This document shows, piece by piece, positions 4,266-19,895 of a stretch of 64,000 nt of DNA (position 1 is the stretch's first letter; the number at the start of each line of letters is the position of its first letter). Below the pieces are notes generated by a model. It had not been told where the DNA came from and searched no databases. It saw nothing but the letters and a program-made list of their open reading frames with translations. Made by a program: the position numbers and the translations under genes. Source of the DNA: Chloroflexota bacterium (GTDB lineage Bacteria; Chloroflexota; Anaerolineae; Anaerolineales; Villigracilaceae). The stretch covers positions 558,001 to 622,000 of the forward strand of contig JACRBN010000026.1 in the NCBI GenBank assembly GCA_016213105.1, written 5' to 3'.

Positions 4266-4292
4266 GTAGAGCGAGATACTATCTCGCTCTAC
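4266..4292. repeat. 27-nt perfect REP-like palindrome (right flank of RAYT), supplies metH stop
   Basis: Arms of 13 bases around a central C read GTAGAGCGAGATA and its complement. Read on the minus strand, its GTAG arm provides the TAG stop of metH at 4289-4291. Confidence 0.9.
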
Positions 4293-7200: not shown

Positions 7201-7894
7201 CGGTGCCGAGCAACATGCGGCCTGTCGTGTCGAGCGTGACCTGGGCCTGGATCGGCAGCGACTGGCCCGTCTCGTCGAAGGCTTTGTGGATGCCTGTGAT
7301 GACAGCTTTGACTTCGAGGATGTCCTGCGAGGTCTCGATCAGCAGCAAATCCACGCCGCCGCGGATGAGGCCGACGGCCTGCTCGCGGAAGGTGTCGGCC
7401 AGCTCGTCGAAGCTGACGTTGGACAGCTCGGGGTCATTGGCGGAGGGCAGCTTGCCCGAGGGGCCGATGGAGCCAGCGACGAAACGGGGTTGGGGTTGTC
7501 GGGGCGACCCTTGTGGTCGCCCTTCTGGGACAGGGACAAGCCCTGTCCTTACGGAATACTCGTCAGCAACCTTTCGCGCCAGTCTCGCGGCAGTCTCGTT
7601 GAGTTCGAGCACGCGATCCTGCAGGCCGTATTCCTTCATCGTGATGCGGTTGGAGCGGAAGGTGTCCGTTTCGAGCACGTCCACGCCGACTTCGAGGAAG
7701 GAGCGGTGGACTTTTTCCACGGCTTCGGGATACGAGATGACGAGATAGTCGTTGCATCCGTTGTATTGCTCGCCGCCGAAATGCTGGGCGGTCAGGTTTT
7801 GCAGTTGCAGGCTGGTGCCCATCGCGCCATCGAAGACGAGCACTTTCTTTGCGAGGGCGTCAAGGTAGCGGCGGTTGGTGTAGGTTCTTTTCAT
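4289..7894 (-). CDS. metH: Cobalamin-dependent methionine synthase
   Basis: The enzyme transfers a methyl group from methyltetrahydrofolate to homocysteine through cobalamin. Start ATG 7894 has TAGGAG six bases upstream; the product is 1201 residues. Domains in order: homocysteine-binding domain with zinc ligands in GLNCSTG and GGCCGTTPEHL (residues 1-310); pterin-binding domain starting ERCNAQGSRKFKRLL (about 345-620); cobalamin domain with GDVHDIGKN, where His is the cobalt ligand (about 775); and a complete SAM-reactivation domain with RYSWGYPAIPELEDH near the end. All four modules are present, so it should be self-reactivating. It is the last gene behind the SAM riboswitch at 9.2 kb, 26 bases after the glycosylase. 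Palindromic repeats have inserted in frame at residues about 113-131 and 683-704, and another repeat encodes about 918-934; all fall in linkers or loops. Confidence 0.97.
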   Translation of the reverse strand: MKRTYTNRRYLDALAKKVLVFDGAMGTSLQLQNLTAQHFGGEQYNGCNDYLVISYPEAVEKVHRSFLEVGVDVLETDTFRSNRITMKEYGLQDRVLELNETAARLARKVADEYSVRTGLVPVPEGRPQGSPRQPQPRFVAGSIGPSGKLPSANDPELSNVSFDELADTFREQAVGLIRGGVDLLLIETSQDILEVKAVITGIHKAFDETGQSLPIQAQVTLDTTGRMLLGTDVNAALAILEGMGIDVIGLNCSTGPEHMREPIRILGENSTLPVSCIPNAGLPLNVDGQAVYPLEPEPFANDLFEFVTKYNISVVGGCCGTTPEHLRRLVEKLDSHPGTKRPSQSTPQLASAMSAISMRQDPPPTLLGERCNAQGSRKFKRLLLEEDYDGILEVAREQVEFGAHALDISCAVTERPDEVELMRKVVKKLEMGVDVPLVIDTTELDVLEVALKTAPGRCLINSTHLESGREKADKIFKLAKEHNAAVIVLTIDEQGMAKTRERKLEVAKRIYDIAVNDHGLKPEDLVYDALTFTLATGDEEFVDSAIETIEGIRLIKQHLPGVMASLGVSNLSFGLAQHARPVLNSIMLYHCVQAGMDMAIINPAHVTAYADISAEEKEMAEDLLFNRRKDALQRYIEYYENVTPTSESSLVDPTEGMTPEQRLHWSIVHRHKEGVEADIDEIIVRAGLVSAQPVSTPGAGTSPAPTRHEIAVHTLNNVLLPAMKEVGDKFGAGELILPFVLQSAEVMKKTVNHLENYLEKVEGVTKGTVVIATVYGDVHDIGKNLVKTILANNGYTVIDLGKQVPAETIITKAVEANATAIGLSALLVSTSKQMPLIVNEMHRRGHQIPILVGGAAINRRFGRRILFAEDGNAYEPGVFYCKDAFEGLETMDRLIDPERKPALMEQVHREADMEMGRASKSVERPASNVQRSTITPEPITHPAKWGPRVVKDMPLEMVLKHLNINELYRLSWGAKNTHGAEWDKLKKEFDARLQKMTKEALKDGWLKPQAVYGFFPCQADGDDLVIYNPETVTTASPEEMTRFHFPRQPYDDHLALSDYFASVESGKLDVVAFQVVTVGLEATERFEKMQAANDYTEAYFAHGLAVQTAEATADYLHNHIRRELGLGEEQGKRYSWGYPAIPELEDHQKVFELLPAEKELGMSLTTAYQLMPEQSTAAILVHHKDARYYSVGESRVEQLMR
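5093..5137. repeat. GAACGTTGGACG-type direct repeat inside metH
   Basis: Variants of GAACGTTG, GTTGGACGCTGGACG and GTTCGACG follow one another and are read in frame as SVERPASNVQRSTI between the cobalamin and activation domains. Other MetH proteins have a variable linker here, so the insert is likely tolerated. Confidence 0.6.
5781..5841. repeat. Two adjacent palindromes inserted in frame in metH
   Basis: The first hairpin is GGGGCAGGG/CCCTGCCCC with a CTTGT loop (5781-5803). The second is GGGCGG/CCGCCC (5821-5841). Together they encode a Gly/Pro/Ala/Thr-rich stretch of MetH between the pterin and cobalamin domains. Confidence 0.75.
7502..7548. repeat. Two adjacent palindromes inserted in frame near the metH 5' end
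   Basis: Hairpins GGGCGACC/GGTCGCCC (7502-7522) and GGACAGGG/CCCTGTCC (7528-7548) both have five-base loops. They encode the VPVPEGRPQGSPR stretch inside the homocysteine domain, just before the conserved FVAGSIGP. Confidence 0.78.
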
Positions 7895-7920
7895 AAGGCT
7901 CCTAAGTTTTAGCCACGGAT

Positions 7921-8712
7921 TTACGCGGATTTTTTTGAATAGTGATTGCAAAAAAATCTTGCTTCACACAGTTGACATGATGGATTAATTTCTGAACAGA
8001 TGCCGCGTTCAATGCCAAATTCTTTTGATTGAACTTGCCCAAAGGCTACAAAAACGATATCAATGTAGCGAATAGGATGACCTGTCGTCTCAGCTATTTT
8101 TCTGCCTTGAATAATGGCTTGAAGGTATTGTTCCCTGGAATTGATAAGTCCCAATCTCTCAAAAATTCGGCAAATCACTCTATCAGGTTTCAAAACAGGA
8201 AAACCAATATCAGTAAGAAAATGATATACGGTAATTTTCCCTAAACCTGAAAATCTATCTTCCAGTTCTTCTGTTAATAGGAAAAGATTCTCAAAAGATT
8301 GGCGAGCGTTAAAGCCGTCGATATAGTTTTGAATAGAACCATGTTCTTGGAGAATGGATTGGAAAACCTTGGCATTTTCTACACATGATTCTATTTTTCT
8401 GCGATTTCGAATCATTCCTTTGTCTGCAAGAATACCTTTGATTTCTTTCTCGCCATATTTAGCAATCAGTTCGTAATTTTGAAAGTGTTTATGGATAGTA
8501 TTGATTTTTGCAGTAACTGTAGCCGCACGGAAACCTGAATAAAAAATAACATCGACAAGGACGCGGTAATAATCGCTATTTGAAAAACTCTTTCCTTCAA
8601 TTTGCTTAAACCAGTTTAAATTTGCCTGAATTGATTCGACTGCAAGGTGCTTTGATCCCTCACTAATCAGAGACGTTTCGATGGCATCAAAAATCTTCTT
8701 GTAATCTTTCAT
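7921..8712 (-). CDS. HhH-GPD DNA glycosylase with a 4Fe-4S cluster motif
   Basis: The 263-residue base-excision repair enzyme is related to both 3-methyladenine glycosylase I and endonuclease III. The helix-hairpin-helix region with the GLGKITVYHFL segment is followed by KPDRVICRI, whose Asp is the expected catalytic residue. The C-terminus carries the Cys pattern C-x6-C-x2-C-x5-C typical of the endonuclease III cluster. The N-terminal half (YYRVLVDVIFYSGFRAAT) looks more like 3-methyladenine glycosylase families. It is clearly richer in A+T than metH on one side and the genes beyond, suggesting transfer. It overlaps the upstream DUF5946 gene by 26 bases (ATG 8712; GTG 8727 is possible) and shares the riboswitch transcript. 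Its last codons and stop lie in a dispersed repeat (about 7911-7938). The substrate is uncertain. Confidence 0.82.
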   Translation of the reverse strand: MKDYKKIFDAIETSLISEGSKHLAVESIQANLNWFKQIEGKSFSNSDYYRVLVDVIFYSGFRAATVTAKINTIHKHFQNYELIAKYGEKEIKGILADKGMIRNRRKIESCVENAKVFQSILQEHGSIQNYIDGFNARQSFENLFLLTEELEDRFSGLGKITVYHFLTDIGFPVLKPDRVICRIFERLGLINSREQYLQAIIQGRKIAETTGHPIRYIDIVFVAFGQVQSKEFGIERGICSEINPSCQLCEARFFCNHYSKKSA

Positions 8713-9124
8713 GTTTTTCTTTTTCACTTTCTTCTAGCACGGATCTCGCCCACGCGGTCACGTCTGCGCAATACTCCTCGACGTTCTCCGCGCGGACATC
8801 CAGAATCGTCTTTGTCCATGTGGATTTTTGGATGATGCGCTGACCATCCCGCGATTTGATTTTGAAGGTACGCTTGCCGCTGTCGACCAGATCCCTGTTC
8901 TGCTTTCGAATGAAGGCGGGCGGTTTATTGTCCACGAGGAATTCTCTCAATAACTCTCGCTCATGCAGCCAGCCTTCACGGGTCAACTGGCTGGAGTGTT
9001 GCAGCATGTACGCGCTCACGGTCAGGTGGTGGATGGCGCCGTAGCCTGCATCGGTAAACTCCAGCGCGAGGAATTCGTCGAAGCGGGAGCGGCAATTCAC
9101 GGCGCCACATTCGGGACAAATCAT
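8687..9124 (-). CDS. DUF5946 family protein
   Basis: The 145-residue protein starts with MICPECGAVNC, a likely metal-binding Cys cluster. FDEFLALEFTDAGYGAIHH and TVSAYMLQH follow, segments I associate with DUF5946. No catalytic function is known for the family. It is the first gene after the SAM riboswitch terminator, with its ATG 13 bases beyond the end of the T-run. The next gene overlaps its 3' end. Its position makes it a candidate for a methionine- or SAM-related role, or a passenger in the metH operon. Confidence 0.7.
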   Translation of the reverse strand: MICPECGAVNCRSRFDEFLALEFTDAGYGAIHHLTVSAYMLQHSSQLTREGWLHERELLREFLVDNKPPAFIRKQNRDLVDSGKRTFKIKSRDGQRIIQKSTWTKTILDVRAENVEEYCADVTAWARSVLEESEKEKHERLQEDF

Positions 9125-9136
9125 CTCACAGCCTCA

Positions 9137-9165
9137 CAATAAAAACGCCTCTCAAGGGAGAGGCG
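9137..9165 (-). terminator. Intrinsic terminator of the SAM riboswitch expression platform
   Basis: On the minus strand the stem CGCCTCTC/GAGAGGCG (9146-9165) with a four-base loop is followed by TTTTTATTG. It sits between the aptamer and the first gene, as expected for transcriptional control. Confidence 0.9.
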
Positions 9166-9187
9166 ACACGCACAGTGCATATCATCT

Positions 9188-9286
9188 CTCATCTCCCGGA
9201 CAATCGTCCGCCGAAATTGGCACCGTGTTCGCTGGGAACGGTTGCCGAGGCTTCAAAGGGTCGGTCCCTCAGCCTCTCTGGATGAG
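9188..9286 (-). ncRNA. SAM-I (S-box) riboswitch aptamer
   Basis: Read on the minus strand, the element starts CTCATCCAGAGAGGCTGAGG, continues with GGGACCGACCCTTTGAAGCC, then CGGCAACC and GGTGCCAATT. It closes with GATGAG pairing to CTCATC. These are the conserved P1, GAGGGA, GAA and GGTGCCA blocks of the S-box. SAM binding should favour the terminator at 9137-9165 and shut off DUF5946, the glycosylase and metH. The element lies about 1.3 kb upstream of metH. Confidence 0.95.
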
Positions 9287-9307
9287 TCTTCCGTAAAGTA
9301 TTTGCGT

Positions 9308-9336
9308 TTTATATCATGGCAGGGTAGGAATGTCAA
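9308..9336 (-). promoter_or_regulatory. Sigma70-type promoter of the SAM riboswitch operon
   Basis: On the minus strand TTGACA (9336-9331) and TATAAA (9313-9308) are separated by 17 bases. The start point would fall just before the aptamer. Confidence 0.82.
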
Positions 9337-9443
9337 ACCAGCCATCCGCAGCAGGGCTGACTTCCCGTGACTTCAATTTTTCCCGGGATGGTTTTGTTGT
9401 ATACTTGCATTAAGGATTTCTTTATTCGTTAACGAGAAACGCC

Positions 9444-10421
9444 ATGAGAAACGTGGAACCCTTGCGCGCCTTCGACCAGATCAAGCTGTTGGCGGATTCC
9501 CGCCGCATGGAGATTCTGCGTCTGCTCATGGCCTCCTCCGCCACCCTCACCCAACTCGCGCGGATCCTCGGCCAGTCCCCGGCCTGGGTCAGGCATCACA
9601 TCCTGGCGCTCGAGTCCGCGGATTTGATCGAGCTGGCCGAAACCCGCACCACGGGCAAGGTCACGGAAAAATTCTATCGCGCCAAAGCCAGCGCCCTGCT
9701 CCTGCAGGAAGTCATCCTGCCCAAAAGCAAAAGGCCCGCCGTCATCTTTTCGGGCAGCCATGACCTGGCGCTGGAGGGTATCGCCGAGCGCCTGGCAAAG
9801 CACGTCACCCTGCTCAGCCTGCCGGTCGGCTCGCTGGACGGGCTGGTCAACCTGCGCCAGGGATTGTGCCAGATCTCCGGTGCGCACATCCTGGACGAGA
9901 GCGGCGAGTACAACACGCCCACCGTCCGCCACCTCTTCCCCGACCGCGACATGGACGTCATCACCCTGGCCTACCGTACCCAGGGTTTGATGCTGGCGGG
10001 GGGCAATCCCAAAGGAATAAAAAGTATTGCCGACCTGCCGCGCCCGGGCGTGTGCTTTGTCAATCGCAATGCAGGCTCGGGCACCCGCCTGTGGCTGGAT
10101 GCGGAGCTGCGCAGGCGCGGCATCCCCGCCGAAACGATTCAAGGCTATGAGACCGCCGTCAAGACCCACAGCGAGGCCGCCGCGTTGATCGAAACGGGCA
10201 GTGCGGATGTTTCGCTTGGTTTGCAGGCGGCCGCCCATCAGCACGGACTCGACTTCATCCCGCTCTTCGAAGAACGCTACGATCTCGTCCTGCCGCGCGA
10301 GCAGGAAAAACCGCTGCATCCCCTGCTCGATTACCTTCAAACGCTGGCCTTTCGTCAATCCTTATCGGTGCTGACAGGCTATAACCCAACCCATACTGGT
10401 GAGCAAATCCTTGTCCATTAA
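9444..10421 (+). CDS. ArsR-like HTH regulator with a periplasmic-binding-like sensor domain
   Basis: Residues 1-95 form a winged helix (LADSRRMEILRLLMAS, then LARILGQSPAWVRHHI). Residues about 110-325 resemble the PBP-like domain (PF12727 type) found in molybdate-responsive proteins; NRNAGSGTRLWLDAELRRRG is its most typical segment. The soluble one-component regulator would sense an oxyanion or molybdopterin-related ligand in the cytoplasm. It is the first gene of the Mo/W cluster on the same strand, 53 bases before the first lipoprotein, so local regulation is likely. TATACT at 9410-9415 is a possible -10. A short GC hairpin (10428-10447) without a T-run lies after it. Confidence 0.8.
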   Translation: MRNVEPLRAFDQIKLLADSRRMEILRLLMASSATLTQLARILGQSPAWVRHHILALESADLIELAETRTTGKVTEKFYRAKASALLLQEVILPKSKRPAVIFSGSHDLALEGIAERLAKHVTLLSLPVGSLDGLVNLRQGLCQISGAHILDESGEYNTPTVRHLFPDRDMDVITLAYRTQGLMLAGGNPKGIKSIADLPRPGVCFVNRNAGSGTRLWLDAELRRRGIPAETIQGYETAVKTHSEAAALIETGSADVSLGLQAAAHQHGLDFIPLFEERYDLVLPREQEKPLHPLLDYLQTLAFRQSLSVLTGYNPTHTGEQILVH

Positions 10422-10474
10422 AGAATAACGGACGGAGCCCCGTCCGTACCCAAACACCATCAAGGAGTTTTTCC

Positions 10475-11947
10475 ATGAAACTGCATATTCGTTTGATTCT
10501 GAGCGGCCTGCTCTTGGTCGCTCTGGCCCTTGGTTTCGCCGCCTGCGCCCCCCAGACGGAACCTGCGCCCACGCCGACCTCCGCCCCTGTCGCAACGGAA
10601 GTCCAGGCCACCGAAGCGCCCGCTGAAGTCGTCCTGGAGTTCGTCGGCGCGGCGGAGACGAAGTCCTTCACCCTGGCCGACTTGCAGGCCCTGCCCGTCA
10701 CCGAAGGGTTCGCGGGCACCAAGAGCAGCACGGGCAAGATCACCCCGCCCGTTACGTTCAAGGGCGTGTCCCTGAAAGACCTGGCCGCCGCGGCCGGCGG
10801 CCTGGATGCGGACAGCGGCTTTAACCTGGTCGCCAAGGATGGCTACGGCATCACCTTCTCGCTCGACCAGATCGATAACGGCACCTTTACAGCCTATGAT
10901 CCCGCCACGGGCGACGAGCTCAAGAACCCCGTCGAGCTGACCGCCATGCTGGCCTACGAAGTGGACGGCCAGCCGCTGAACGTGGAACAGGACGGTTACC
11001 TGCGCCTGGTCATCGTCAGCGCCGAGCCGACCCAGGTCACCGACGGTCACTGGTCGGTCAAATGGGTCACCACGGTCGAGACCAAGTCCATGGTCGAGGA
11101 ATGGAACCTGCAAGCCGAAGGCGCCATCTCCGAGAGCATCGACCGCGCCAGCGTGGAATCCTGCGGCGCGCCGCAGTGCCACGGCACCAGTTGGACGGAC
11201 GACAAGGCCCAGGAATGGGTGGGCGTTCCGCTCTGGCTGTTCGTCGGCACGGTGGATGACGAGATCGCGCACGAAGGCCCCGCCTTCAACGACGCTCTGG
11301 CCGACGGCGGCTACAGCGTGGATGTGATCGCGGCCGACGGCTACACCGTCACCTTCGACGCCGCGCGCGTCAAACGCAACGACAACATCCTGGTGGCCTT
11401 CAAGGTCAACAACAATCCGCTCGACGAGAAATACTTCCCGCTGCGCCTGGTTGGCTCGGATTTGCAGAAGAACGAGATGGCTGGACAGATCGCCACCATC
11501 AAGGTGCTGGTCGAAGCCATCGCCGCGACTGAACCCGCTGCCACCGAACCTGCCGCCACCGAGCCCGCGGTTGGCCCCGTGACTGAGGCCGATGCCACGC
11601 TGAGAATCGAAGGCGCCGTCAACCAGCCGGTCTTCCTGAACGAAGCCGCCCTGCGCGCGCTGGAAGTGGTCAAGATCAACGCGCCGAACGCCAAGGGCGT
11701 GGCCGCCGATTTCGAAGGTGTGCGCCTGAGCACCCTGCTCGAACTGGCAGGCGTCAAGGACAGCGCCACCACCGTGCGCTTCACCGCTTCGGATGGCTAT
11801 TACTCCGAGGTCAAGCTGGCCGACTTGAAAGCCTGCACCGACTGCCTGCTGGGCTTCACCAATACGCTTGAAAAATTCAAGCTGGTGATGCCAGGCATGA
11901 CCAGCGATGTCTGGGTCAAGGACATCATCAAGATCACGGTTCGTTAG
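10475..11947 (+). CDS. Lipoprotein with three molybdopterin-oxidoreductase-like domains
   Basis: The start is ATG 10475 with AGGAG upstream. The 490-residue product has a lipoprotein signal (LGFAAC, Cys 25) and a Pro/Thr/Ala stalk. Three copies follow of a fold resembling the sulfite-oxidase-type molybdopterin domain, at about 55-200, 205-350 and 385-490. Each has a SFTLADLQALP-like strand and helix; the third is FLNEAALRALE. The middle copy carries SCGAPQCHG, the position where the enzyme family has its Mo-ligand Cys; the other two lack it. It is exported, so catalysis with a cytoplasmically loaded cofactor is doubtful. It may instead bind oxyanion or cofactor for the neighbouring transporters. 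Function is inferred from context only. Confidence 0.7.
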   Translation: MKLHIRLILSGLLLVALALGFAACAPQTEPAPTPTSAPVATEVQATEAPAEVVLEFVGAAETKSFTLADLQALPVTEGFAGTKSSTGKITPPVTFKGVSLKDLAAAAGGLDADSGFNLVAKDGYGITFSLDQIDNGTFTAYDPATGDELKNPVELTAMLAYEVDGQPLNVEQDGYLRLVIVSAEPTQVTDGHWSVKWVTTVETKSMVEEWNLQAEGAISESIDRASVESCGAPQCHGTSWTDDKAQEWVGVPLWLFVGTVDDEIAHEGPAFNDALADGGYSVDVIAADGYTVTFDAARVKRNDNILVAFKVNNNPLDEKYFPLRLVGSDLQKNEMAGQIATIKVLVEAIAATEPAATEPAATEPAVGPVTEADATLRIEGAVNQPVFLNEAALRALEVVKINAPNAKGVAADFEGVRLSTLLELAGVKDSATTVRFTASDGYYSEVKLADLKACTDCLLGFTNTLEKFKLVMPGMTSDVWVKDIIKITVR

Positions 11948-12037
11948 TATCCCGACAAGTTAAACCTGTAGGGCAAATTGCCAATTTTGCCGGGCGCAAT
12001 TTAGCAAATTGCGCTACACCTTCATCTGGTAACGGCA
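11948..12037. repeat. Composite palindromic repeat, copy A
   Basis: It starts with CGACAAGTTAAA, followed by a GGCAAATTG/CAATTTTGCC palindrome, a GCGCAATTTAG/CAAATTGCGC palindrome and CTTCATCTGGTAACGGCA. Copies B (30391-30480) and C (51287-51371) have the same order; a partial copy is at 36996-37021. Confidence 0.88.
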
Positions 12038-12057
12038 TTGAAAACCGAAAAGAGAAC

Positions 12058-12085
12058 GGGGTGGGATGCAAATCCCACCCTTTTC
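12058..12085 (+). terminator. Terminator-like hairpin before wtpA
   Basis: GGGTGGGAT/ATCCCACCC with a four-base loop is followed by TTTT. It probably separates the first lipoprotein from the wtpA unit. Confidence 0.6.
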
Positions 12086-12147
12086 GAACATCAAAAAAAT
12101 GGCGCGGAATGGCATTCCGCGATCAACGGTTAGTTTGAAAGAAATTT

Positions 12148-13218
12148 ATGTCCTCGAAATTATTCCGCTTGTTCATTATTTTCTCGCTCGGGCTGGGACT
12201 CGGCTCCTGTAACGGGCAGCAACCGTCAGCGGAGAAAACTCCGCTGGTGGTGTTCGCCGCTGGGAGTCTGATCCTCCCGTTCGCGCACATCGAAGAAGCC
12301 TTCGAGGCGCGTTATCCCAACATCGACGTGCAGGCCGAGTATCACGGCAGCATCCAGGTCATGCGGCACGTAACCGAGTTGCGGGAAGAGATCGACGTGG
12401 TGGCGACCGCCGACGCCGCGCTGATCCCGATGTTGATGTATGCCAACAACGTGCCCGAGACGGGCCAGCCCTACGCGGACTGGTATATCAGTTTCGCGAG
12501 CAATCACCTGGCGCTGGCCTACTCGCCCGAAAGCAAATACGCGGACGAGATCAACGCCTCCAACTGGATGGAAGTGCTGGCGCGGCCTGACGTGAAGGTC
12601 GGTTTCTCCGATCCGCGCTTCGACGCCTCGGGCTATCGCACGCTGATGGCCTTCGCGTTGACCGAGATCGCCGAGGGCCGCTACGATCGCTTTGGCCCGA
12701 TGTTCGATGGACAGTTCACGTATCCGATCACGATCTTCCGCGACGACGACCTGACCACCGTCACTGTGCCAGAGATTTTGGAGACCAAGTCAGGTTCGCA
12801 TATCTTCCTGCGCGGCGCGAGCATTCAGTTGATCGCCCTGCTCGAATCGGGCGACCTGGATTATGCCTTCGAGTACGAGAGCGTCATCCAGCAGCATGGA
12901 CTTAAGTTGCTGTCCCTGCCGACCGAGGTCAACCTGGGTGATGCCTCCTCTGCGGATTTTTACAGGCAGGTGCAGGTCAACCTGGACTTCCAGCGCTTCG
13001 CCTCGCTCAAGCCGCAGTTCCGCGGCGAGCGCATCGGCTATGGCATCACCATCCCGTCCAACGCGCCACACGCGGATGAGGCCGCCCTGTTCATTGCATT
13101 CCTGCTTTCGCCTGAAGGCCGCGCTTTGATGGAAGCCGATCATCATCCGCTGTTCGAGATATTCATCGCGGACGGCCTTCCGAATCTGCCCACGGATTTG
13201 CAGGCCTTGTGTGAATAA
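12148..13218 (+). CDS. wtpA: Molybdate/tungstate ABC transporter substrate-binding lipoprotein
   Basis: The 356-residue protein has a short signal with the lipobox LGLGSC, then LVVFAAGSLILPF, the opening strand and oxyanion-binding loop of the Mod/Wtp/Tup class II binding proteins. YHGSIQVMRHV supplies the second ligand loop, and the GFSDPRFDASGYRT segment is characteristic of WtpA. It should capture molybdate or tungstate outside the membrane for the WtpB permease next to it. Whether it prefers W or Mo cannot be read from the sequence. No dedicated ATPase gene follows wtpB. Confidence 0.88.
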   Translation: MSSKLFRLFIIFSLGLGLGSCNGQQPSAEKTPLVVFAAGSLILPFAHIEEAFEARYPNIDVQAEYHGSIQVMRHVTELREEIDVVATADAALIPMLMYANNVPETGQPYADWYISFASNHLALAYSPESKYADEINASNWMEVLARPDVKVGFSDPRFDASGYRTLMAFALTEIAEGRYDRFGPMFDGQFTYPITIFRDDDLTTVTVPEILETKSGSHIFLRGASIQLIALLESGDLDYAFEYESVIQQHGLKLLSLPTEVNLGDASSADFYRQVQVNLDFQRFASLKPQFRGERIGYGITIPSNAPHADEAALFIAFLLSPEGRALMEADHHPLFEIFIADGLPNLPTDLQALCE

Positions 13219-13230
13219 TGATAAGCGCAT

Positions 13231-13341
13231 GTCGTTGCGAGCGAGCGCTCTTCAGCGAGCGAAGCAACCTCATGATGAGGTACAGGGGATTGCTTCGGGC
13301 GCCTGCCCTGAGTTTTTCGAAGGGATCGCCCTCGCAATGAC
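13231..13341. repeat. MITE-like repeat with GTCGTTGCGAG / CTCGCAATGAC ends
   Basis: The 111-bp segment between wtpA and wtpB has inverted termini GTCGTTGCGAG and CTCGCAATGAC and internal GAAGCAACCTC-type blocks. A shorter relative with the same ends lies at 14606-14681. I see no clear target duplication. Confidence 0.65.
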
Positions 13342-13347
13342 GTCTGA

Positions 13348-14133
13348 ATGAATCATCGCAATCAGCTCTTTAACTTTGCATTTTCCTTCCTGGGCGGGCT
13401 GCTCCTGCTGTTCATCCTCGCGCCGCTGGGCATGACCCTGCTGGGCACGACGCCCGCGCAATTCTGGCAGTCGCTAACTGACGCGGAAGTGCTGCGTTCC
13501 ATCGGGCTGACCTTCCTGGCGGCGGGCATCGCCACCGCGCTGGCCCTGGTCACGGGCGTGCCGCTGGCTTACCTGCTGGCGCGCCGCAAATTCCGCGGCA
13601 AGGGATTGATCGAGGCGGTCGTCAACCTGCCCGTGATCATTCCGCACACGGCGGCGGGCGTGGCGCTCCTGCTCGTGCTGGGACGACATGGCCTGTTTGG
13701 CCGCTGGCTGGCTCCGCTCGGGCTGACCTTCACCGACAACGTTGCGGGCATCGTGGCGGGCATGTTGTTTGTCAGTCTGCCCTTTCTGGTCAACATGAGC
13801 CGCGAGTCCTTCGCGCTGGTGGACGAGGAACTGGAGCGCGTGGCCCTGGCCGATGGCGCCAGCCTGGCCCAGGCCTTTCTGCTGGTCACCCTGCCGCTGG
13901 CCTGGCGCGGCGTGATGGCGGGCGCGGTGATGATGTGGGCGCGCGGCATCAGCGAGTTCGGTGCGGTCGTCATCCTGGCCTATCACCCCAAGATCGTGCC
14001 CGTGCTGGTCTACGAACGCCTGCAGGGATTTGGCCTCTCCGCGGCCCAGCCTGTGGCGGCCCTGCTGATCCTGATCGCGATCCTGACCCTCCTGGTGGTG
14101 CGGGTCGCGTTGGATGCAAAACAAATCGATTGA
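13348..14133 (+). CDS. wtpB: Molybdate/tungstate ABC transporter permease
   Basis: The 261-residue membrane protein has about six helices. It carries the ABC-permease EAA loop in the segment DEELERVALADGASLAQAF followed by VTLPLAW, which contacts the ATPase. It forms the channel for the WtpA-delivered oxyanion. The start ATG 13348 falls seven bases after the MITE-like repeat, so the native ribosome site may have been altered by that insertion. The nearest ATPase on the strand is tupC, 3.5 kb downstream, which may serve both permeases. Confidence 0.86.
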   Translation: MNHRNQLFNFAFSFLGGLLLLFILAPLGMTLLGTTPAQFWQSLTDAEVLRSIGLTFLAAGIATALALVTGVPLAYLLARRKFRGKGLIEAVVNLPVIIPHTAAGVALLLVLGRHGLFGRWLAPLGLTFTDNVAGIVAGMLFVSLPFLVNMSRESFALVDEELERVALADGASLAQAFLLVTLPLAWRGVMAGAVMMWARGISEFGAVVILAYHPKIVPVLVYERLQGFGLSAAQPVAALLILIAILTLLVVRVALDAKQID

Positions 14134-14145
14134 AAAGGAAATTTT

Positions 14146-14604
14146 ATGAAACGAAATATCTCCGTGCTGATGTTGATCCTCCTCGCCCTGACCCTGGCCG
14201 CCTGCGCCCCTGCGGCCACCCAGCCCGCCGCTGACGGGCCCAAGACGCCCCAGGCCCTCCAGCCCACGGCGATTTCGGGCGCGCTCTTCCAGGTGATCCT
14301 GCCCGACGGCTCCAGTGTCGGCATCACGCTCGACCAGCTCAAATCCCTGCCGCTGGCGCAATTGACCGTGGACGGCAAGACCGAGGAAGGCCCGAAACTG
14401 ATGGACATCCTGACCCTGGCGGGCGTGACCGATTTCAGCGAAGTCTCGCTGACAGGTTCCAGCGCTCCCGTCACGCTGACGCGCGAACAGGTGGACGACA
14501 ACACCATCCTTGACTTCAATAATCACGGCACGCTGAAACTATCCACCACCTACGTCCCCAAAGCGGACTGGACGAAGGACATCAGCACGATCACTGTTAA
14601 ATGA
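14146..14604 (+). CDS. Small lipoprotein with one molybdopterin-oxidoreductase-like domain
   Basis: The 152-residue product has a lipobox (LTLAAC, Cys 21) and a short Ala/Pro stalk. One domain follows, similar to the third repeat of the 490-residue lipoprotein: GITLDQLKSLPLAQL, then GPKLMDILTLAGV and a C-terminal WTKDISTITVK. No Cys is present at the Mo-ligand position. It starts 12 bases after wtpB with AAGGA upstream, so it is co-transcribed and probably assists the same transport system at the cell surface. No enzyme activity is inferred. Confidence 0.68.
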   Translation: MKRNISVLMLILLALTLAACAPAATQPAADGPKTPQALQPTAISGALFQVILPDGSSVGITLDQLKSLPLAQLTVDGKTEEGPKLMDILTLAGVTDFSEVSLTGSSAPVTLTREQVDDNTILDFNNHGTLKLSTTYVPKADWTKDISTITVK

Positions 14605-14605
14605 C

Positions 14606-14681
14606 GTCGTTGCGACCTTCGGGAAGCAACCTCCCAATAACCTGAGATTGCTTCGCGGCAACGAACGCCGCTCGCAATGAC
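14606..14681. repeat. MITE-like repeat with GTCGTTGCGA / TCGCAATGAC ends
   Basis: The 76-bp element has the same termini as 13231-13341 and shares the GAAGCAACCTC and GATTGCTTCG blocks. It fills the gap between the small lipoprotein and the GIDDTD gene. Confidence 0.62.
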
Positions 14682-14692
14682 ATGAGGTAATT

Positions 14693-15415
14693 ATGAAATA
14701 CCTGATTGGCATCGATGATACGGACAATCTCGAAAGCCGCGGCACGGGACATCGCGTCCGCCAGCTCGCGGATTGGCTGGCCGAAAATCACCTGGCCGCG
14801 CCGCTGGGAATCACGCGCCATCAGTTGTTGGTGGATCCGCAGATTCCCTACACGTCCCACAACAGTTCCGCCTGCCTGCGCGCGGAGTCGGATGCGCCCG
14901 CGGAGTTGTGGCAGGCCTGCCGCGAGTTCCTGCTACGCGAGAGCGCGGAAGGCTCGGATGCGGGCCTGTGCCTCGCGCCGTGGGATTCGGTCAACGAGTG
15001 CCTCGTCTCGTTTGCCCGCCGCGCCAAGATCACCGTGCTGACCATGCTCGAAGCGGAGCAGACCGCCTTCGATAACGGCATCCAACTCGAAGGGCTGACG
15101 GGCACGCGTGGCGGCATCATCGGCGCGTTGGCGGGAGTCGGCCTGCATCGGCAGGGGAACGATGGCCGCTACCTTTGGCTGCCTGGCTTGCGCGAATTGC
15201 GCGGCAAACTGCCCGTCTCCGAAATCTGCGCGCTCGGTCATGTGGAGCGTGTCTGCACGTTGAGCCACACCAACCTGCACCCCAAAACGGTTGTCGACGT
15301 CGGCGAATGGATTCGCCCCATTCCGCGCGACGGTTTAGCCACCCTGTATGTTGAGGAGAAAAATCATGAATGGTACTGCCTCTCTAAGGAACACATCAAG
15401 AGCCTTTCCAACTGA
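14693..15415 (+). CDS. GIDDTD-motif protein related to the TiaS-type N-terminal domain
   Basis: The 240-residue cytoplasmic protein begins MKYLIGIDDTDNLESRGTG, the acidic nucleotide-binding motif known from archaeal tRNA(Ile2) agmatinylcytidine synthetase (TiaS). HNSSACLRAE and GTRGGIIGALAGVGL, a probable phosphate-binding region, follow. It is about half the length of TiaS and lacks the zinc-ribbon and OB-fold part, so tRNA modification is unlikely to be its role. It lies within the Mo/W cluster, and its 3' end overlaps the next gene by 50 bases, so the two are translationally coupled. An ATP-dependent step in cofactor or metal handling is possible. Confidence 0.65.
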   Translation: MKYLIGIDDTDNLESRGTGHRVRQLADWLAENHLAAPLGITRHQLLVDPQIPYTSHNSSACLRAESDAPAELWQACREFLLRESAEGSDAGLCLAPWDSVNECLVSFARRAKITVLTMLEAEQTAFDNGIQLEGLTGTRGGIIGALAGVGLHRQGNDGRYLWLPGLRELRGKLPVSEICALGHVERVCTLSHTNLHPKTVVDVGEWIRPIPRDGLATLYVEEKNHEWYCLSKEHIKSLSN

Positions 15416-15941
15416 GTGGACGCTTCCCTGGTGGGAAGCCCTGCTCCTGATGGGCAGCGGCGTGTTGGCGGTGATCCTGCACCGCAGTTTCGACGCCTCG
15501 CTCAGCCTGCCTGGTCACCACGGCATCGAGTGGATGGCGCTGATGGTCATCGGACGCCTGTCCTCGCGTTATCGCGGCGCGGGCACGCTGACCAGCGTCG
15601 GCGCCGCGCTGGCGTCCACCATCCCCATGTGGCGCGGCGGCGACCCGTTCACCCCGCTGCTGTACATGCTGCCCGGCCCCGTCATGGATCTGGCCTTCCG
15701 CTACCTGCCACGCTACGCCGACAAGGTCTGGTTCCTGATGTTCGTGGCGGGCATGGCGCACATGACCAAACCCGTGACGCGCCTCATCATCAACCTGACC
15801 ACGGGCTGGCCGTTCGGCTCGTTCCGTTTTGGCATCGCCTATCCCGTGCTGGGTCACTTTTTCTATGGTGCAATCGGCGGCTTGCTCGGCGCCCTGGTCA
15901 TTCTGGGCATGCGCAAACTGTCTGATAAAAACAAACCTTAA
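15366..15941 (+). CDS. Small polytopic membrane protein in the Mo/W cluster
   Basis: The 191-residue protein (ATG 15366 with GAGGAG upstream; the earlier start at 15348 lacks this site) has about five or six hydrophobic segments with short loops. Length and topology recall S-components of energy-coupling-factor transporters, but I see no diagnostic motif. It overlaps the GIDDTD gene and precedes tupA by 12 bases. Both facts argue for a role in the same oxyanion or cofactor process. I do not recognise the family. Confidence 0.62.
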   Translation: MNGTASLRNTSRAFPTEWTLPWWEALLLMGSGVLAVILHRSFDASLSLPGHHGIEWMALMVIGRLSSRYRGAGTLTSVGAALASTIPMWRGGDPFTPLLYMLPGPVMDLAFRYLPRYADKVWFLMFVAGMAHMTKPVTRLIINLTTGWPFGSFRFGIAYPVLGHFFYGAIGGLLGALVILGMRKLSDKNKP

Positions 15942-15953
15942 AGGATTGGATGT

Positions 15954-16892
15954 ATGAAACTCAAACCGTTCCACCAGCTCACCACCCTGATCGTCCTGCT
16001 GTCCCTGGCGCTTTCCGCCTGTGGGACAACCGCCCCGACGGCTGCTCCCGCCACCGAAGCGCCCGTCGCCACGGAAGCGCCGACCGAGGCTCCCACCGAA
16101 GCGCCCGCTCCCGCCGCGCCCGCCAACCCGAACCTAATCCTGGCAACCACCACCAGCACACAGGACTCGGGCCTGCTCGACGTGCTGATTCCGCTCTTCG
16201 AAGCGCAGACCGGCTACAAGGTCCAGACCGTGGCCGTGGGCACAGGCGAAGCGCTCAAGATGGGCGAGGAAGGCAACGCCGACGTTCTGCTCGTGCATGC
16301 GCCCTCCTCCGAGGTCACCTTCATGGATGGCGGCTTCGGCCAGGATCGCTTCCTGGTCATGCACAACGACTACATCATCGTCGGCCCCGCCGCCGATCCC
16401 GCGGGCATCAAGAGCCTTGGCCCCAAGGACGCTTTCGTGGCAATCTATAACGCTGGCGTTTCCTTTGTGACCCGCGGCGACGACTCGGGCACGCACAAGA
16501 AGGAACTTAGCTTCTGGACGAAGGCCGAGCTCGATCCCGCCGGCCAGGCCTGGTACATCGAGACCGGCCAGGGCATGGGCGCCTCGCTGACCGTGGCTTC
16601 CGAGAAGGGCGCCTACATCCTGACTGACCGCGCCACCTACCTCGCCAACAAGGACAACCTGCAACTCGAAATTCTGCTCGAAGGCAACAACTCTTTGCTG
16701 AACGTCTACCACGTCATCACGGTCAACTCAACCAAGTGGCCCAAGGTTAACTATGACGGCGCAATCGCCTTCGCCAAATTCATGACCGACCCCGCCACCC
16801 AGGCCGTGATCGCCGAGTTCGGCATGGACAAGTTCGGCCAGCCGCTCTTCTACCCCGACGCCGACAAGACCGATGCGGATTTAGGATTATAG
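15954..16892 (+). CDS. tupA: Tungstate ABC transporter substrate-binding lipoprotein
   Basis: The 312-residue protein has a lipoprotein leader (LALSAC) and a Pro/Ala/Glu stalk to about residue 55. The TupA signature LATTTSTQDSGLLD forms the oxyanion-binding loop. VGTGEALKMGEEGNADVLL and FVTRGDDSGTHKKE are further conserved ligand segments. It should bind tungstate outside the cell with high affinity and deliver it to TupB. It differs clearly from wtpA in the same cluster, so two systems for similar anions coexist. Confidence 0.92.
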   Translation: MKLKPFHQLTTLIVLLSLALSACGTTAPTAAPATEAPVATEAPTEAPTEAPAPAAPANPNLILATTTSTQDSGLLDVLIPLFEAQTGYKVQTVAVGTGEALKMGEEGNADVLLVHAPSSEVTFMDGGFGQDRFLVMHNDYIIVGPAADPAGIKSLGPKDAFVAIYNAGVSFVTRGDDSGTHKKELSFWTKAELDPAGQAWYIETGQGMGASLTVASEKGAYILTDRATYLANKDNLQLEILLEGNNSLLNVYHVITVNSTKWPKVNYDGAIAFAKFMTDPATQAVIAEFGMDKFGQPLFYPDADKTDADLGL

Positions 16893-16966
16893 GTACACGT
16901 AGATAAGGAAACACGGAAACAGGCGGGCAGGTTGACACGCCGCTTGCCTGCCTGTTTTCCTTCCCC

Positions 16967-17608
16967 ATGACTGACCTCCTCCCCATCACCCTGCTCTCCC
17001 TGCAAGTCTCCATCCTGGCGACGCTGATCAGCCTGCTGATCGGTCTGCCGCTGGGGACGATGCTTGCGCTGGGTAAATTCCCCGGGCGCTCGTTTTTATT
17101 GAGCCTGATCAACACGGGCATGGCCCTGCCGCCCGTGGTGGTGGGATTGTTCGTGGCCATGTCGCTCTGGCGTTCGGGTCCGCTGGGGGATTTGCGCCTG
17201 ATCTACACCCCCGCCGCCATCATCATCGCGCAGACGATTATCGCCGCGCCCGTGGTGACAGGGCTGACCGCCGCCGCGCTGCAGCAGCTCAATCCGCGCC
17301 TGCGCTTGCAGCTTTACGGGCTGGGCGCGTCGCGCGTGCAGATGGTGCTGTCCCTGTGGCGCGAGGCGCGCCTGCCCCTGCTGGCCGCGCTGATGGCAGG
17401 CTTCGGCTCGGTCATCTCGGAGGTCGGCGCTTCGATGATGGTGGGCGGCAATATCAAAGGCCAGACGCGCGTGCTGACCACCGCCATCGTGTTGGAAACC
17501 GGCAAGGGCGAGTTCGAGCGTGCCATCGCCCTGAGCATCTTCCTGCTGACCATCACCTTCCTGGTCAACTGGGCGCTGACGGTCATCCAGCAGCGAGGCC
17601 GTCCGTGA
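16967..17608 (+). CDS. tupB: Tungstate ABC transporter permease
   Basis: The 213-residue membrane protein with about five helices contains the coupling loop YGLGASRVQMVLSLWREARLP. Together with TupA and TupC it forms a tungstate importer. It begins 74 bases after tupA. Its stop codon overlaps the GTG start of tupC (GTGA at 17605-17608), which couples translation of permease and ATPase. Confidence 0.92.
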   Translation: MTDLLPITLLSLQVSILATLISLLIGLPLGTMLALGKFPGRSFLLSLINTGMALPPVVVGLFVAMSLWRSGPLGDLRLIYTPAAIIIAQTIIAAPVVTGLTAAALQQLNPRLRLQLYGLGASRVQMVLSLWREARLPLLAALMAGFGSVISEVGASMMVGGNIKGQTRVLTTAIVLETGKGEFERAIALSIFLLTITFLVNWALTVIQQRGRP

Positions 17609-18324
17609 CCGCCCTGATCGAAGTCCGCGACCTGCTCGTCCGCCGCGAAAAGCAGACCGTGTTGGAGATCGCGCACCTGTCGGTCGAAGCGGGCGAGGTG
17701 CTGGCCGTGGTCGGCCCGAACGGCGCGGGCAAGAGCACGCTCTTCCTCACGCTGGCGCGCCTGCTCAAGCACGAGCGCGGCGTGATCCGCTTCTTCAATG
17801 GACACGAATCCATTTCCACGCTGGAGTATCGCCGCCGCATCGCGTTGGTCTTGCAGGAGCCGCTGCTGCTGGATGCCAGCGTCCGCGAGAACGCCGCCAT
17901 CGGCTTGAGGTTTCGGGGGACGCCCAAAGCGGAGGCCGACCGCCGCGTCGCTCACTGGCTGGAACGGCTGGGTGTGGCGCACTTGGCGGAACGCTCCGCG
18001 CGGAAGCTCTCGGGCGGGGAATCCCAACGCGTGAGCCTGGCCCGCGCCTTTGTCCTGGAGCCTGAGCTGCTCCTGCTCGACGAGCCCTTTACCGCCCTCG
18101 ACTCTCCCACCCGCGCCCGCCTGCTGGAGGACCTCAAGGCCGTGCTGGGTGAGACGGGCACCACCACCATCTTCATCACGCACGACCTGCGCGAAGCCGA
18201 AAAGCTCGGCACGCGCATGGCTGTCATGCTCAAGGGACGTGTCCACCAGGTGGGCAAACCGCGCGAAGTCTTCGCCCATCCCGCCGACTCGCAGGTGGCG
18301 GAATTTTTGGGAATGCAGATGTAG
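17605..18324 (+). CDS. tupC: Tungstate ABC transporter ATP-binding protein
   Basis: The 239-residue ABC ATPase starts with GTG at 17605, overlapping the tupB stop; a longer open frame upstream only reads through tupB out of frame. Walker A is GPNGAGKST, the signature is LSGGESQRVSLARA, Walker B is LLLLDEPF and the H-loop is ITHD. It energises TupB. It is the only ATPase in the Mo/W cluster, so it probably also powers WtpB. There is no C-terminal Mop-type oxyanion-sensing domain, consistent with control by the separate regulator at 9.4 kb. Confidence 0.92.
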   Translation: MTALIEVRDLLVRREKQTVLEIAHLSVEAGEVLAVVGPNGAGKSTLFLTLARLLKHERGVIRFFNGHESISTLEYRRRIALVLQEPLLLDASVRENAAIGLRFRGTPKAEADRRVAHWLERLGVAHLAERSARKLSGGESQRVSLARAFVLEPELLLLDEPFTALDSPTRARLLEDLKAVLGETGTTTIFITHDLREAEKLGTRMAVMLKGRVHQVGKPREVFAHPADSQVAEFLGMQM

Positions 18325-18355
18325 GTCACGCCTGTGGCGCGATTCATGGAGGAGA

Positions 18356-18428
18356 TATACCCAGCGCGGTCACAAATTGCGCTTTTTTAGAGCGGGGAAG
18401 GCACAATTTATGACCGTGGGTATTATAT
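18356..18428. repeat. Long imperfect inverted repeat after tupC
   Basis: The arms CGGTCACAAATTGCGC and GCACAATTTATGACCG, with flanking ATACCC and GGGTAT, pair over about 25 positions with a few mismatches; the interior is T- and A-rich. It may be the tupC terminator or an operator for the cupin gene, since TATAAT-like bases lie at its right edge. Confidence 0.55.
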
Positions 18429-18469
18429 AATCGCTAAAATTTTCGTTTTCCCTGCCAAAGGAGCATCCC

Positions 18470-18805
18470 ATGCAAGCCTTCGAAGTATCCCAACTCATAT
18501 CCAGGCAAGCTGCCGGTGACAGGCTGTACCTCGAATTCCTCAAAGTCCCCGACCTGAGCATGGGACTGTACGCGCTGTCCGCCGGCGGCATGGACCCGCA
18601 GTCCGCGCACACGGAGGACGAGGTTTATTACGTGGTTGGCGGGCGGGCCAGGATCAAGGTCGCGGACGAAGACCGCGCCGTGCAGGCTGGCTCGATCATC
18701 TACGTGCCGAAGCACGTGGAGCACCGCTTCCACTCGGTGGAGGAGGAACTGCGGGTGATCGTCTTCTTCGCGCCGGCGGAATATTCGAATTCGAAAAGCG
18801 GGTAG
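18470..18805 (+). CDS. Cupin-domain protein
   Basis: The 111-residue single-domain cupin has motif 1 in HTEDEVYYVVGG and motif 2 in IYVPKHVEHRFHS, giving His/Glu/His metal ligands inside a beta-barrel. Such small cupins bind a metal and a small molecule; the substrate cannot be deduced. It has a GGAG-type site before ATG 18470 and no obvious operon partner. The neighbour on the right is on the other strand. Confidence 0.8.
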   Translation: MQAFEVSQLISRQAAGDRLYLEFLKVPDLSMGLYALSAGGMDPQSAHTEDEVYYVVGGRARIKVADEDRAVQAGSIIYVPKHVEHRFHSVEEELRVIVFFAPAEYSNSKSG

Positions 18806-18973
18806 ATCCAGGCGGCCGAACATCCCCCAGTCAGACAATCCCCCGGCCTGCGCGCCGAATGCTTCAGACCTCCTCCTCGAAAAAGTCGCCCGTCCCCGCG
18901 CCGGTCGGCAGAGCCTCGGGTTGGCAGCTCCTGTAGACCTGGGCCTGCAATGACTGTCGGGCGAGTGCATGGT

Positions 18974-19750
18974 TTACTGCGGAGGCTGTGAACCGAAACG
19001 GGTTTTGGGATGGATGAACAGGTAATAGACCGCCAGCGCGCCGCTGTAGAGCAGGACCGCTACGTACACGCCCAGGTTGAGCAGTTGCTCGGGTTGAACG
19101 GTCTGGAACATTTTCAGGAAAGGGACGATCAGGACCAGGTCATAGGCCAGGAAGCTGAGCAGTTGTCCCATGGCATTGTGCCAGCGCGGACGGAGCAGCC
19201 CGTATAGGAAGTAGAAGGCATCCCCCAGGAAGATGCAGCCGAAGATGACGGAGGTATCGGGGTTCAACGCCCAGGGGAAGATCGGCGTCCTGAAGATCAA
19301 CGCTCCGCCCGCCAGGAGCAGGGAGACGATGAAAATGCCGAAGGAGATGCGCACGGGCATCGGCGTGGGACGCGGATCGCCCAGGGGCAGCCGTCGGCTC
19401 CACAGGAAGGCGCCTCCGCTGGCCAGTGCCATGAGCAGGGCCGCGATCCCAAAGGGGAGCAGGTTCGGGCGGCCCTGTGCGGCAAGTCGAAAAAAGTAAA
19501 CGGAGGTGGTCGCGGCGATGACCAGGATGTTCAGCGCGCCCGCGGGGAGCGCCCCCAATTCTCCCGTGGCGCCGATCCAGAACGCGGCGGCGCTGACGGC
19601 GGCCAGGATGGAGCCGACGAACAAATGCGACAGCGGGCCATCGGCCCAGGGCCACAGGCTGAGCGCCAGCGGGACTTCAAAGATAAAGCCGATTGCCAGC
19701 GCCATGATGACCAGGCCGCCGATGAGAGTCGAACTGCGAATAAGGCTCAT
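18974..19750 (-). CDS. Polytopic membrane protein of unknown function
   Basis: The 258-residue protein has about eight hydrophobic helices and short loops (first helix LIGGLVIMALAIGFIFEV) and a short basic tail. No catalytic or transport motif is visible. It is monocistronic as far as can be seen; the gaps on both sides hold no gene. Confidence 0.7.
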   Translation of the reverse strand: MSLIRSSTLIGGLVIMALAIGFIFEVPLALSLWPWADGPLSHLFVGSILAAVSAAAFWIGATGELGALPAGALNILVIAATTSVYFFRLAAQGRPNLLPFGIAALLMALASGGAFLWSRRLPLGDPRPTPMPVRISFGIFIVSLLLAGGALIFRTPIFPWALNPDTSVIFGCIFLGDAFYFLYGLLRPRWHNAMGQLLSFLAYDLVLIVPFLKMFQTVQPEQLLNLGVYVAVLLYSGALAVYYLFIHPKTRFGSQPPQ

Positions 19751-19895
19751 GGGATTCTCCTACCATTAAGTTTGATTTGTAATGATAACCCCCCGTCACT
19801 CGTTCCGCTTCGCGCTGCCAGGTATTGGGGTCGGGAACCGAACAGGCAGGCTGTAAAACAGATCCTGTCCTGTTCACGATCCAGCCCTGGGAGTC

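Follow-up and report, generated by a model that had tools for sequence, protein, structure and literature searches.

We analysed a 64,000-nucleotide stretch of DNA (the window) from a Chloroflexota bacterium (assembly GCA_016213105.1, contig JACRBN010000026.1, positions 558,001 to 622,000 of the forward strand), whose genome comprises 5.39 Mb in 28 contigs. Ten open frames lie head to tail between positions 9444 and 18324 of the window, all on the + strand. Our results indicated that this locus is probably a reduced form of a composite cluster for the acquisition of molybdenum or tungsten (Mo/W), or of their cofactor, in which oxyanion uptake by ATP-binding cassette (ABC) importers is joined by an energy-coupling factor (ECF) arm that lacks its motor genes here. 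The first arm, two oxyanion ABC importers with lipoproteins of the PruR or sulfite oxidase (SUOX) fold outside the membrane, is well supported. The second arm comprises an ECF S component, a PruR-like lipoprotein and a protein with the motif GIDDTD; its association with Mo/W is well supported, and its mechanism would be the one proposed below. The ten genes are:

9444 to 10421, +: one-component regulator with an ArsR-type helix-turn-helix (HTH) and a PBP_like (PF12727) ligand domain (PF12727 E 1.6e-62; PF01022 E 1.3e-8)
10475 to 11947, +: lip3, a three-domain lipoprotein of 490 amino acids (aa) with SUOX/PruR folds, CX4CH in the second domain and CxxC in the third (three PF00174 stretches, structural model, lipobox by eye)
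12148 to 13218, +: WtpA, tungstate/molybdate binding protein (TIGR03730, over cut-off)
13348 to 14133, +: WtpB permease, with no wtpC after it (NF040839, below cut-off)
14146 to 14604, +: lip1, a 152-aa lipoprotein with a single PruR/SUOX-like domain (alignment, profile comparison)
14693 to 15415, +: GIDDTD protein, related to the kinase-like domain (TCKD) of TiaS but standing alone (family profile)
15348 to 15941, +: ECF-type S component, a six-helix membrane protein (AlphaFold model, Foldseek, VIA, PF09819)
15954 to 16892, +: TupA, tungstate binding protein, a lipoprotein (NF041772, below cut-off)
16967 to 17608, +: TupB permease (NF041773, below cut-off; NF038017, over cut-off)
17605 to 18324, +: TupC ABC ATPase (PF00005, E 5.8e-32)

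The start of tupC was set at 17605, which overlaps tupB by four bases; the longest frame starts at 17356. The S-component gene overlaps the 3' end of the GIDDTD gene, and the two frames overlap likewise in loci L025 and L111 of other genomes.

An earlier note on this DNA had listed the protein encoded at 15348 to 15941 as part of the set, which stands, but only as a membrane protein, overlooking its fold. The sole Pfam match of the window protein was PF09819 (E 0.045), which 23 of the 31 members of the protein's own family match (best E 1.8e-8). The AlphaFold model, built with 31 sequences, had a mean pLDDT of 88 and six main membrane-type helical stretches. Foldseek ranked ECF S components first, with 5edl at the top (probability 1.00, E 0.011) and ThiT next. 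In the VIA comparison 5edl, which we take to be YkoE, reached Z 15.4 (3.4 Å, 165 residues), followed by ThiT 4tkr (11.7; 3.5 Å, 157 aligned), the S component 3p5n (11.1), the transition metal transporter 4m5b (9.6), a folate ECF transporter chain (9.5) and CbiM 5x3x (8.2). Unrelated methane monooxygenase (pMMO) chains reached Z 11.2, so only 5edl stands clear; Z scores of helical bundles separate poorly, and a family missing from the VIA list is not excluded by it. On the predicted structure, the window membrane protein has an ECF S-component fold.

We searched for the GIDDTD protein in a draw of 150 genomes of the same class (labelled G) and found 13 carriers, the window's genome included. 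Loci from a genome collection (labelled L) were the best 80 of 368 stretches matching the GIDDTD profile, which together with the window gave 81 loci in 52 clusters at 80% identity. A neighbour was counted within 10 kb of GIDDTD, many loci being cut by contig ends, and duplicate records (L035/L028, L054/L031 and L098/L032) were counted once as named loci. The seeds of the neighbour families came from GIDDTD-found loci, so this choice bears on all counts made over the 81 loci. The usual order in Chloroflexota and Spirochaetes was GIDDTD, EcfAA (a double ABC ATPase), EcfT, a membrane-anchored lip1-like domain and the S component; EcfAA and EcfT were named by TIGR04520 and TIGR02454, both below cut-off. 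EcfT was present in 23 of the 81 loci, 21 of which also had EcfAA, lip1 and S and thus the complete five-gene operon. The S component was found in 32 loci, and 11 of these, the window among them, were without EcfT. Judged by sequence, lip1 of the window is the predicted counterpart of the membrane-anchored domain in the ECF operons of its relatives. Both arms stand in one run in L037 (regulator-lip3-wtpA-wtpB-tupA-tupB-tupC-GIDDTD-EcfAA-EcfT-lip1-S).

Within the 150 class genomes the S family gave nine matches. Seven were strong (E < 1e-30), and each of these lay in a GIDDTD genome, on the contig of that gene and at most 6.1 kb from it; the two weaker ones, in the GIDDTD-less genomes G100 (E 8e-12) and G134 (E 6e-5), lie outside this strong count. 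The chance of the S-GIDDTD overlap was 6e-9 with phylogeny ignored and with query rows that came from GIDDTD loci, some of them in the same genomes, which favours such copies. The 37 methanogen-lineage loci contained no S component or EcfT; the molybdenum storage protein MoSto was present in 25 of them and TupA or WtpA in 24. The earlier note had proposed conservation of the whole gene set in relatives as a check; we found the set to be linked to Mo/W and conserved in pieces, with S and GIDDTD belonging to an ECF operon there.

The neighbourhood of GIDDTD carries the link to Mo/W. Among the 81 loci TupA was present in 34, WtpA in 16, MoSto in 36, MoaB in 4 and MOSC in 3; at least one of the five occurred in 47 loci (46 of 80 without the window) and in 28 of the 52 clusters. 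When the S component or EcfT was counted too, the number rose to 68 of the 80 named loci. The kinase-fold neighbour was identified as MoSto by its match to the beta subunit in the PDB (E 7.6e-74). MoSto (E < 1e-100) was found in 10 of the 150 class genomes, eight of which carry GIDDTD, six within 0.9 kb (chance 1e-8, relatedness ignored); weak matches of the MoSto query, which occurred in 58 genomes with a best E of 3.6e-8, were left out as presumed other kinases. The same query did not find MoSto in the window's genome. MoSto relatives stand beside GIDDTD, often with tungstate transporter genes, in many of L063-L081 and in L028, L035 and L050 (Methanomicrobiales and Chloroflexota). A 2019 paper calls MoSto of Azotobacter a protein without known homologues (PMC6448029).

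Genes for cofactor synthesis and use were also close. Twelve GIDDTD-bearing genomes have MoaC, and in 5 of them it lay at most 4.4 kb from GIDDTD; of the 10 GIDDTD genomes with TupA, 5 have it within 5.3 kb. L029 carries moaC, moaE and moeA in a row, then moaB, MoSto and GIDDTD. The S-GIDDTD pair of the planctomycete locus L099 is flanked on one side by aldehyde:ferredoxin oxidoreductase (AOR) with MoeA and on the other by formylmethanofuran dehydrogenase subunit B (FwdB), and a ModE-type HTH protein occurs near the pair in L108 and L111 (TIGR00637 E 1e-17 and 3e-20, below cut-off). Three scanned loci (L099, L108 and L111) of the ten named loci with S but without EcfT have Mo/W-type genes close.

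The GIDDTD protein, which the earlier note rightly placed in the set, proved to have a kinship that had been missed. The first 150 residues of its family match TCKD, the kinase-like domain of TiaS (PF22641, TiaS_TCKD, in 11 of 12 aligned members), and the family profile searched against the PDB found TiaS 3amt/4rvz at E 2e-11 and 3u02 at E 1e-12. The full-length families were not matched to their cut-offs: 24.6 bits against 600 for the TiaS equivalog and 34.9 bits against 255.8 for the methanogenesis marker 11 equivalog. Because the protein has 240 residues against about 420 for TiaS and stands among many Mo/W neighbours, we infer that it may perform an ATP-dependent step on a Mo/W-related compound.

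What we observed directly are the folds, the gene order, the conservation and the Mo/W neighbourhood, and they are consistent with the following mechanism. WtpA-WtpB and TupA-TupB would import oxyanion, probably sharing the ATPase TupC. A lip1-type lipoprotein would most likely capture a candidate compound needed for Mo/W cofactor use, the S component would carry the captured compound inward, and the GIDDTD protein, as a putative ATP-using kinase-like enzyme, would modify or trap it in the cell.

The lipoproteins were compared with known structures. The earlier note had assigned three sulfite-oxidase-like domains to lip3 and one to lip1. The three in lip3 were confirmed by PF00174; the one in lip1 is less firm, coming from a profile-profile comparison with domain 3 of lip3 (E 3.8e-5, probability 71%). 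The lip1 profile gave two weak unrelated matches in the PDB (E 0.6 and 0.7), the window lip1 had no Pfam match, and the lip1 family matched five Pfam families, each in at most 2 of 23 members. The lip3 profile found sulfite dehydrogenases (E 7e-6) and PruR (7kom, E 6e-4; 7kos, E 5e-3) in the PDB, where a search with its domain 2 alone gave no match. The AlphaFold model of lip3 had a mean pLDDT of 75.5, and its first Foldseek match was PruR 7kom (TM 0.76 by target). In the VIA comparison PruR reached Z 16.6 twice, with 7kou at residues 366-490 (121 aligned, 2.5 Å) and with 7kp2 at residues 48-206 (134 aligned, 2.6 Å), a tie with the sulfane/sulfite dehydrogenases 2xts (16.5) and 2c9x (16.3). 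A review describes PruR as secreted and of SUOX type, binding small pterins and having a conserved Tyr, with Trp where the Mo-ligating Cys would be (PMC13259868). The secreted SUOX-type fold of about 150 residues seen in PruR is present in domains 1 and 3 of lip3, whose lipoprotein signal was recognised by eye.

A Cys at the metal-ligand site (SCGAPQCHG), claimed for one copy of the domain, was not borne out. Cys near the Mo-ligand place occurs only in domain 2 of lip3, as a CX4CH motif (C-GAPQ-C-H) in a low-confidence region of the model (residues 228-235, pLDDT <50), and relatives vary, with CX4CH in L037 and L053, CXXCH in L034 and the first Cys gone in L028/L035. Since PruR fits equally well and the Cys site does not hold, we dropped a sulfite-oxidase enzyme as the default identity of the lipoproteins. 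A c-type haem at the C...CH of domain 2 is possible.

These motifs bear on a different account of the locus, in which the lipoproteins tune the ABC transporters, either as pterin sensors like PruR or as haem proteins, while S with GIDDTD is an unrelated passenger. We regard this as distinctly unlikely. CX4CH or CXXCH in the large lipoprotein family, a protein with two CXXCH motifs nearby in L028, L029 and L035, and a match to the diheme family NF041762 (61 bits, far under the cut-off of 300) argue for it, as do fusions of TupA to a PruR-like domain in 4 of 18 picked GIDDTD-negative TupA loci, which make the lipoprotein part separable. However, the C...CH is not kept in L028/L035, and GIDDTD and S co-occur with Mo/W genes even where Tup and Wtp are missing. 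The proteins with two CXXCH motifs adjoin PruR-like lipoproteins and TupA (L028, 1676-2923; L029, 17129-18274; L035, 17113-18360).

The fusions themselves were counted with a clean profile of A6, an alignment of the lipoprotein domains whose rows include several fused proteins and the window lip1, which match by construction. A PruR-like domain is joined to TupA in 8 of the 36 TupA frames of named loci (a short match in L053), after TupA in seven and before it in L037. The four GIDDTD-negative cases are class genomes (L131, L134, L136 and L137); 11 of the 18 loci had been picked for frames of at least 400 aa, so 4 of 18 is no frequency. With the PruR-like domain fused to TupA in other genomes, there is more support for the earlier suggestion that tungstate capture has an extracytoplasmic accessory, whose new element is the pterin-type fold. 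A PruR/SUOX-like lipoprotein shares the locus with WtpA in 8 of the 16 wtpA-bearing loci, the window included. An 854-aa lipoprotein-WtpA frame in L034 was not counted as a fusion because its sequence has undetermined bases, and an earlier lip3 profile model took in whole TupA-fused proteins, so the lipoprotein counts over the 81 loci are loose. TupA fused to a PruR/SUOX-like domain is listed for L026, L029, L035, L037, L039, L049, L050, L058, L059, L131, L134, L136 and L137. Methanogen WtpA genes are followed by SUOX-like secreted proteins in L077, L082, L086 and L087, with no wtpB beside wtpA in L082 and L087.

Conserved residues of the domain bear on the substrate of the ECF arm, for which import of metal and import of a pterin are two forms of the composite-cluster explanation. 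The CxxC is kept in all 15 domain-3-type rows of A6 (large, TupA-fused and stand-alone lipoproteins) and might be a site for a thiophilic metal. A tentative possibility is that the ECF arm imports the metal (as tungstate, molybdate, a thio-form or a chelate) to back up Tup and Wtp, the lipoprotein domain binding the metal or chelate. The neighbours are mainly concerned with metal handling (Tup/Wtp, MoSto, ModE-type HTH), and nickel and cobalt ECF transporters exist, among them the VIA matches 4m5b and 5x3x. The anchored lip1 of the ECF operons, however, is without CxxC, and the S fold is nearer 5edl and ThiT than the Ni/Co proteins, though by Z scores that separate helical bundles poorly.

A pterin or Mo/W-pterin is the boldest candidate for the compound. 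The PruR-like lipoproteins would then bind a molybdopterin fragment, a tetrahydropterin or the metal-charged cofactor, which S would carry in and GIDDTD would phosphorylate. Kinases trap other vitamins imported by ECF transporters, S components carry vitamins including folate (7nnt, 4z7f), and moaC, moaE, moeA, moaB and MOSC lie close by in relatives. Domains 1 and 3 of lip3 match PruR, in the tie with sulfite oxidase-type enzymes noted above, and the review calls the passage of pterins across the membrane unknown (PMC13259868). Several results made us doubtful of this form. According to the same review, the site of PruR is probably too small for the larger molybdenum cofactor (Moco) (PMC13259868). 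No Trp was seen at the place of PruR's pterin-contacting Trp in a HMMER alignment, made without residue-level superposition, and the DG[YF] aromatic, kept in 13 of the 17 rows of A6, is absent from the lip1 of the ECF operon. The carriers also make their own molybdopterin: MoaC is present in 12 of the 13 GIDDTD genomes (127 of 150 overall) and MoaE in 9 (101 of 150 overall). As GIDDTD carriers keep MoaC and MoaE, nothing suggests that they depend on salvage, and salvage replacing Moco synthesis was rejected for the 150 class genomes. In its furthest version the locus would be what is left of a first system for importing the Mo/W cofactor, either complete or as a pterin-type precursor, with PruR-like capture, import by S and phosphorylation or trapping by GIDDTD in step with metal uptake by Tup and Wtp; we consider this unlikely.

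Several observations weigh against the composite-cluster explanation as a whole. No EcfT or EcfAA stands beside the window S gene. The genome has three EcfT genes elsewhere (contigs C9, C19 and the CbiM-type C28), each with an ATPase and, by eye, already with its own S-type gene. With the motor genes missing, the window S component would have to work by itself or rely on one of these three modules; ECF motors can be shared, and adjacency to the S gene is then not required. The nearest fold relative, 5edl, is presumably YkoE and not a metal transporter. GIDDTD genomes show no enrichment of TupA as such (10 of 13, compared with 86 of 150 in the whole draw; p = 0.11). Twelve of the 81 loci have none of TupA, WtpA, MoSto, MoaB, MOSC, S or EcfT, namely 11 of methanogen lineage and the Chloroflexota locus L052, which has lip1 only. 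By eye, with not all of them scanned, no Mo/W gene was recognised at the S-GIDDTD pair of L097, L101, L110 and L114. Furthermore, contig C2 encodes an ABC ATPase beside which no permease was recognised, and this ATPase could serve WtpB instead of TupC. The module on C9 (L118) stands with its own S-type gene beside what seem to be corrinoid methyltransferase and activator genes.

For the first arm of the composite cluster, WtpA scored over the cut-off of TIGR03730 (291.5 bits, cut-off 242.75) and under that of PRK04168 (301 against 355), and the best match of WtpB was NF040839 (272 bits, cut-off 340). TupA (NF041772, 232.5 bits against 400) and TupB (NF041773, 157.7 bits against 320) were both below cut-off; TupB passed the ABC_perm1 subfamily NF038017 (260.6 bits, cut-off 100). 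None of the 150 class genomes passed the TupA equivalog cut-off, so this cut-off excludes every genome drawn. The frames and family matches bore out that WtpA-WtpB lacks a local ATPase beside a full TupA-TupB-TupC: TupC is the only ATPase within the ten-gene cluster, and no ATPase gene follows wtpB. A search of the genome for WtpC gave no frame over cut-off (best 303 of 440 bits; TupC 203), which is no proof of absence since the control genomes passed in 0 of 14 cases. When the surroundings of the five best other ATPase candidates were compared, a permease-like frame adjoined four, the exception being the one on contig C2. The one-ATPase layout for two permeases recurs in L037 and L053 (wtpA-wtpB-tupA-tupB-tupC), and in G089, a genome of the same family as the window's, an ATPase frame comes right after wtpB and there is no TupA match. 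That TupC drives both permeases, as had been proposed, is plausible from these layouts: WtpB and TupB may share it. The claim of a PBP-type regulator was likewise correct, the protein combining an ArsR-type HTH with PF12727; it also matched the molybdopterin biosynthesis protein PRK14498 (positions 411-644, E 6e-62, below cut-off) and is a probable Mo/W sensor.

Compared with known systems, the second arm shares the six-helix S fold (5edl/YkoE-type, PF09819) with ECF transporters and, in relatives, the adjacent EcfT and double ATPase. It differs in its Mo/W neighbours and in an operon that includes a PruR-like domain and the GIDDTD enzyme, and the window has no motor genes. CbiMNQO and NikMNQO, the cobalt and nickel ECF transporters, likewise combine motor and S component with a small extracytoplasmic partner; here the partner is a PruR-like domain and the S fold is nearer 5edl. 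TiaS, the tRNA-Ile2 agmatinylcytidine synthetase, and methanogenesis marker 11 have the GIDDTD motif and about 150 residues that align; compared with TiaS, the GIDDTD protein is shorter, has RGTG in place of CTTY and stands in a Mo/W context. The first arm resembles WtpABC and TupABC in its binding proteins and permeases, and differs in having one ATPase for two permeases, several subunits under the cut-offs and SUOX/PruR-fold lipoproteins that are TupA-fused in relatives. With PruR (7kos, 7kom, 7kp2, 7rkb) the lipoproteins share a secreted small SUOX-type fold, and domains 1 and 3 showed no Cys at the position of the Mo ligand; in contrast to PruR, they have no Trp counterpart that we could see, are lipoproteins with up to three domains and are linked to Mo/W transport.

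PMC6147048 names ModABC, WtpABC and TupABC as the systems of Mo/W uptake in prokaryotes and notes that some Mo/W users have none of them. The portions available of papers on a cobalt ECF transporter (PMC13119186), on Tup and Wtp in tungsten-dependent archaea (PMC9246946) and on a tungsten maturation cluster with tupBCA (PMC13197769) contain no ECF arm for Mo/W. Among the papers listed on ECF with Mo/W, marker 11, TupA/WtpA-SUOX lipoproteins, pterin-ECF and PF09819, mostly openly accessible ones, the available parts did not describe the operon. Wtp and Tup are the known parts of the locus; new is a recurring module linked to Mo/W that combines the S component, PruR-like lipoproteins and a TCKD-like enzyme. 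The ECF operon that stands among Mo/W neighbours in Chloroflexota and Spirochaetes would provide either a fourth route of transport or a first one for importing part of the cofactor, and its S-GIDDTD core is also found next to Mo/W genes at a few loci of Planctomycetes and Bacteroidetes. Roles become testable for TiaS-like GIDDTD proteins, for PruR-like lipoproteins outside signalling and for a family of S components, and relatives of Azotobacter MoSto are placed beside tungstate transporters.

An Rfam scan of positions 7900-20000 gave one credible match, a S-adenosylmethionine (SAM) riboswitch, and two others near E 1. The riboswitch (9186-9288, - strand, 88 bits) lies upstream of genes leading to a metH-like gene at 4289-7951, named by eye, and a similar metH-like start flanks the cluster of L037 on the corresponding side. 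Directly after tupC and on the same strand, a small frame that looked cupin-like by eye spans 18470-18805.

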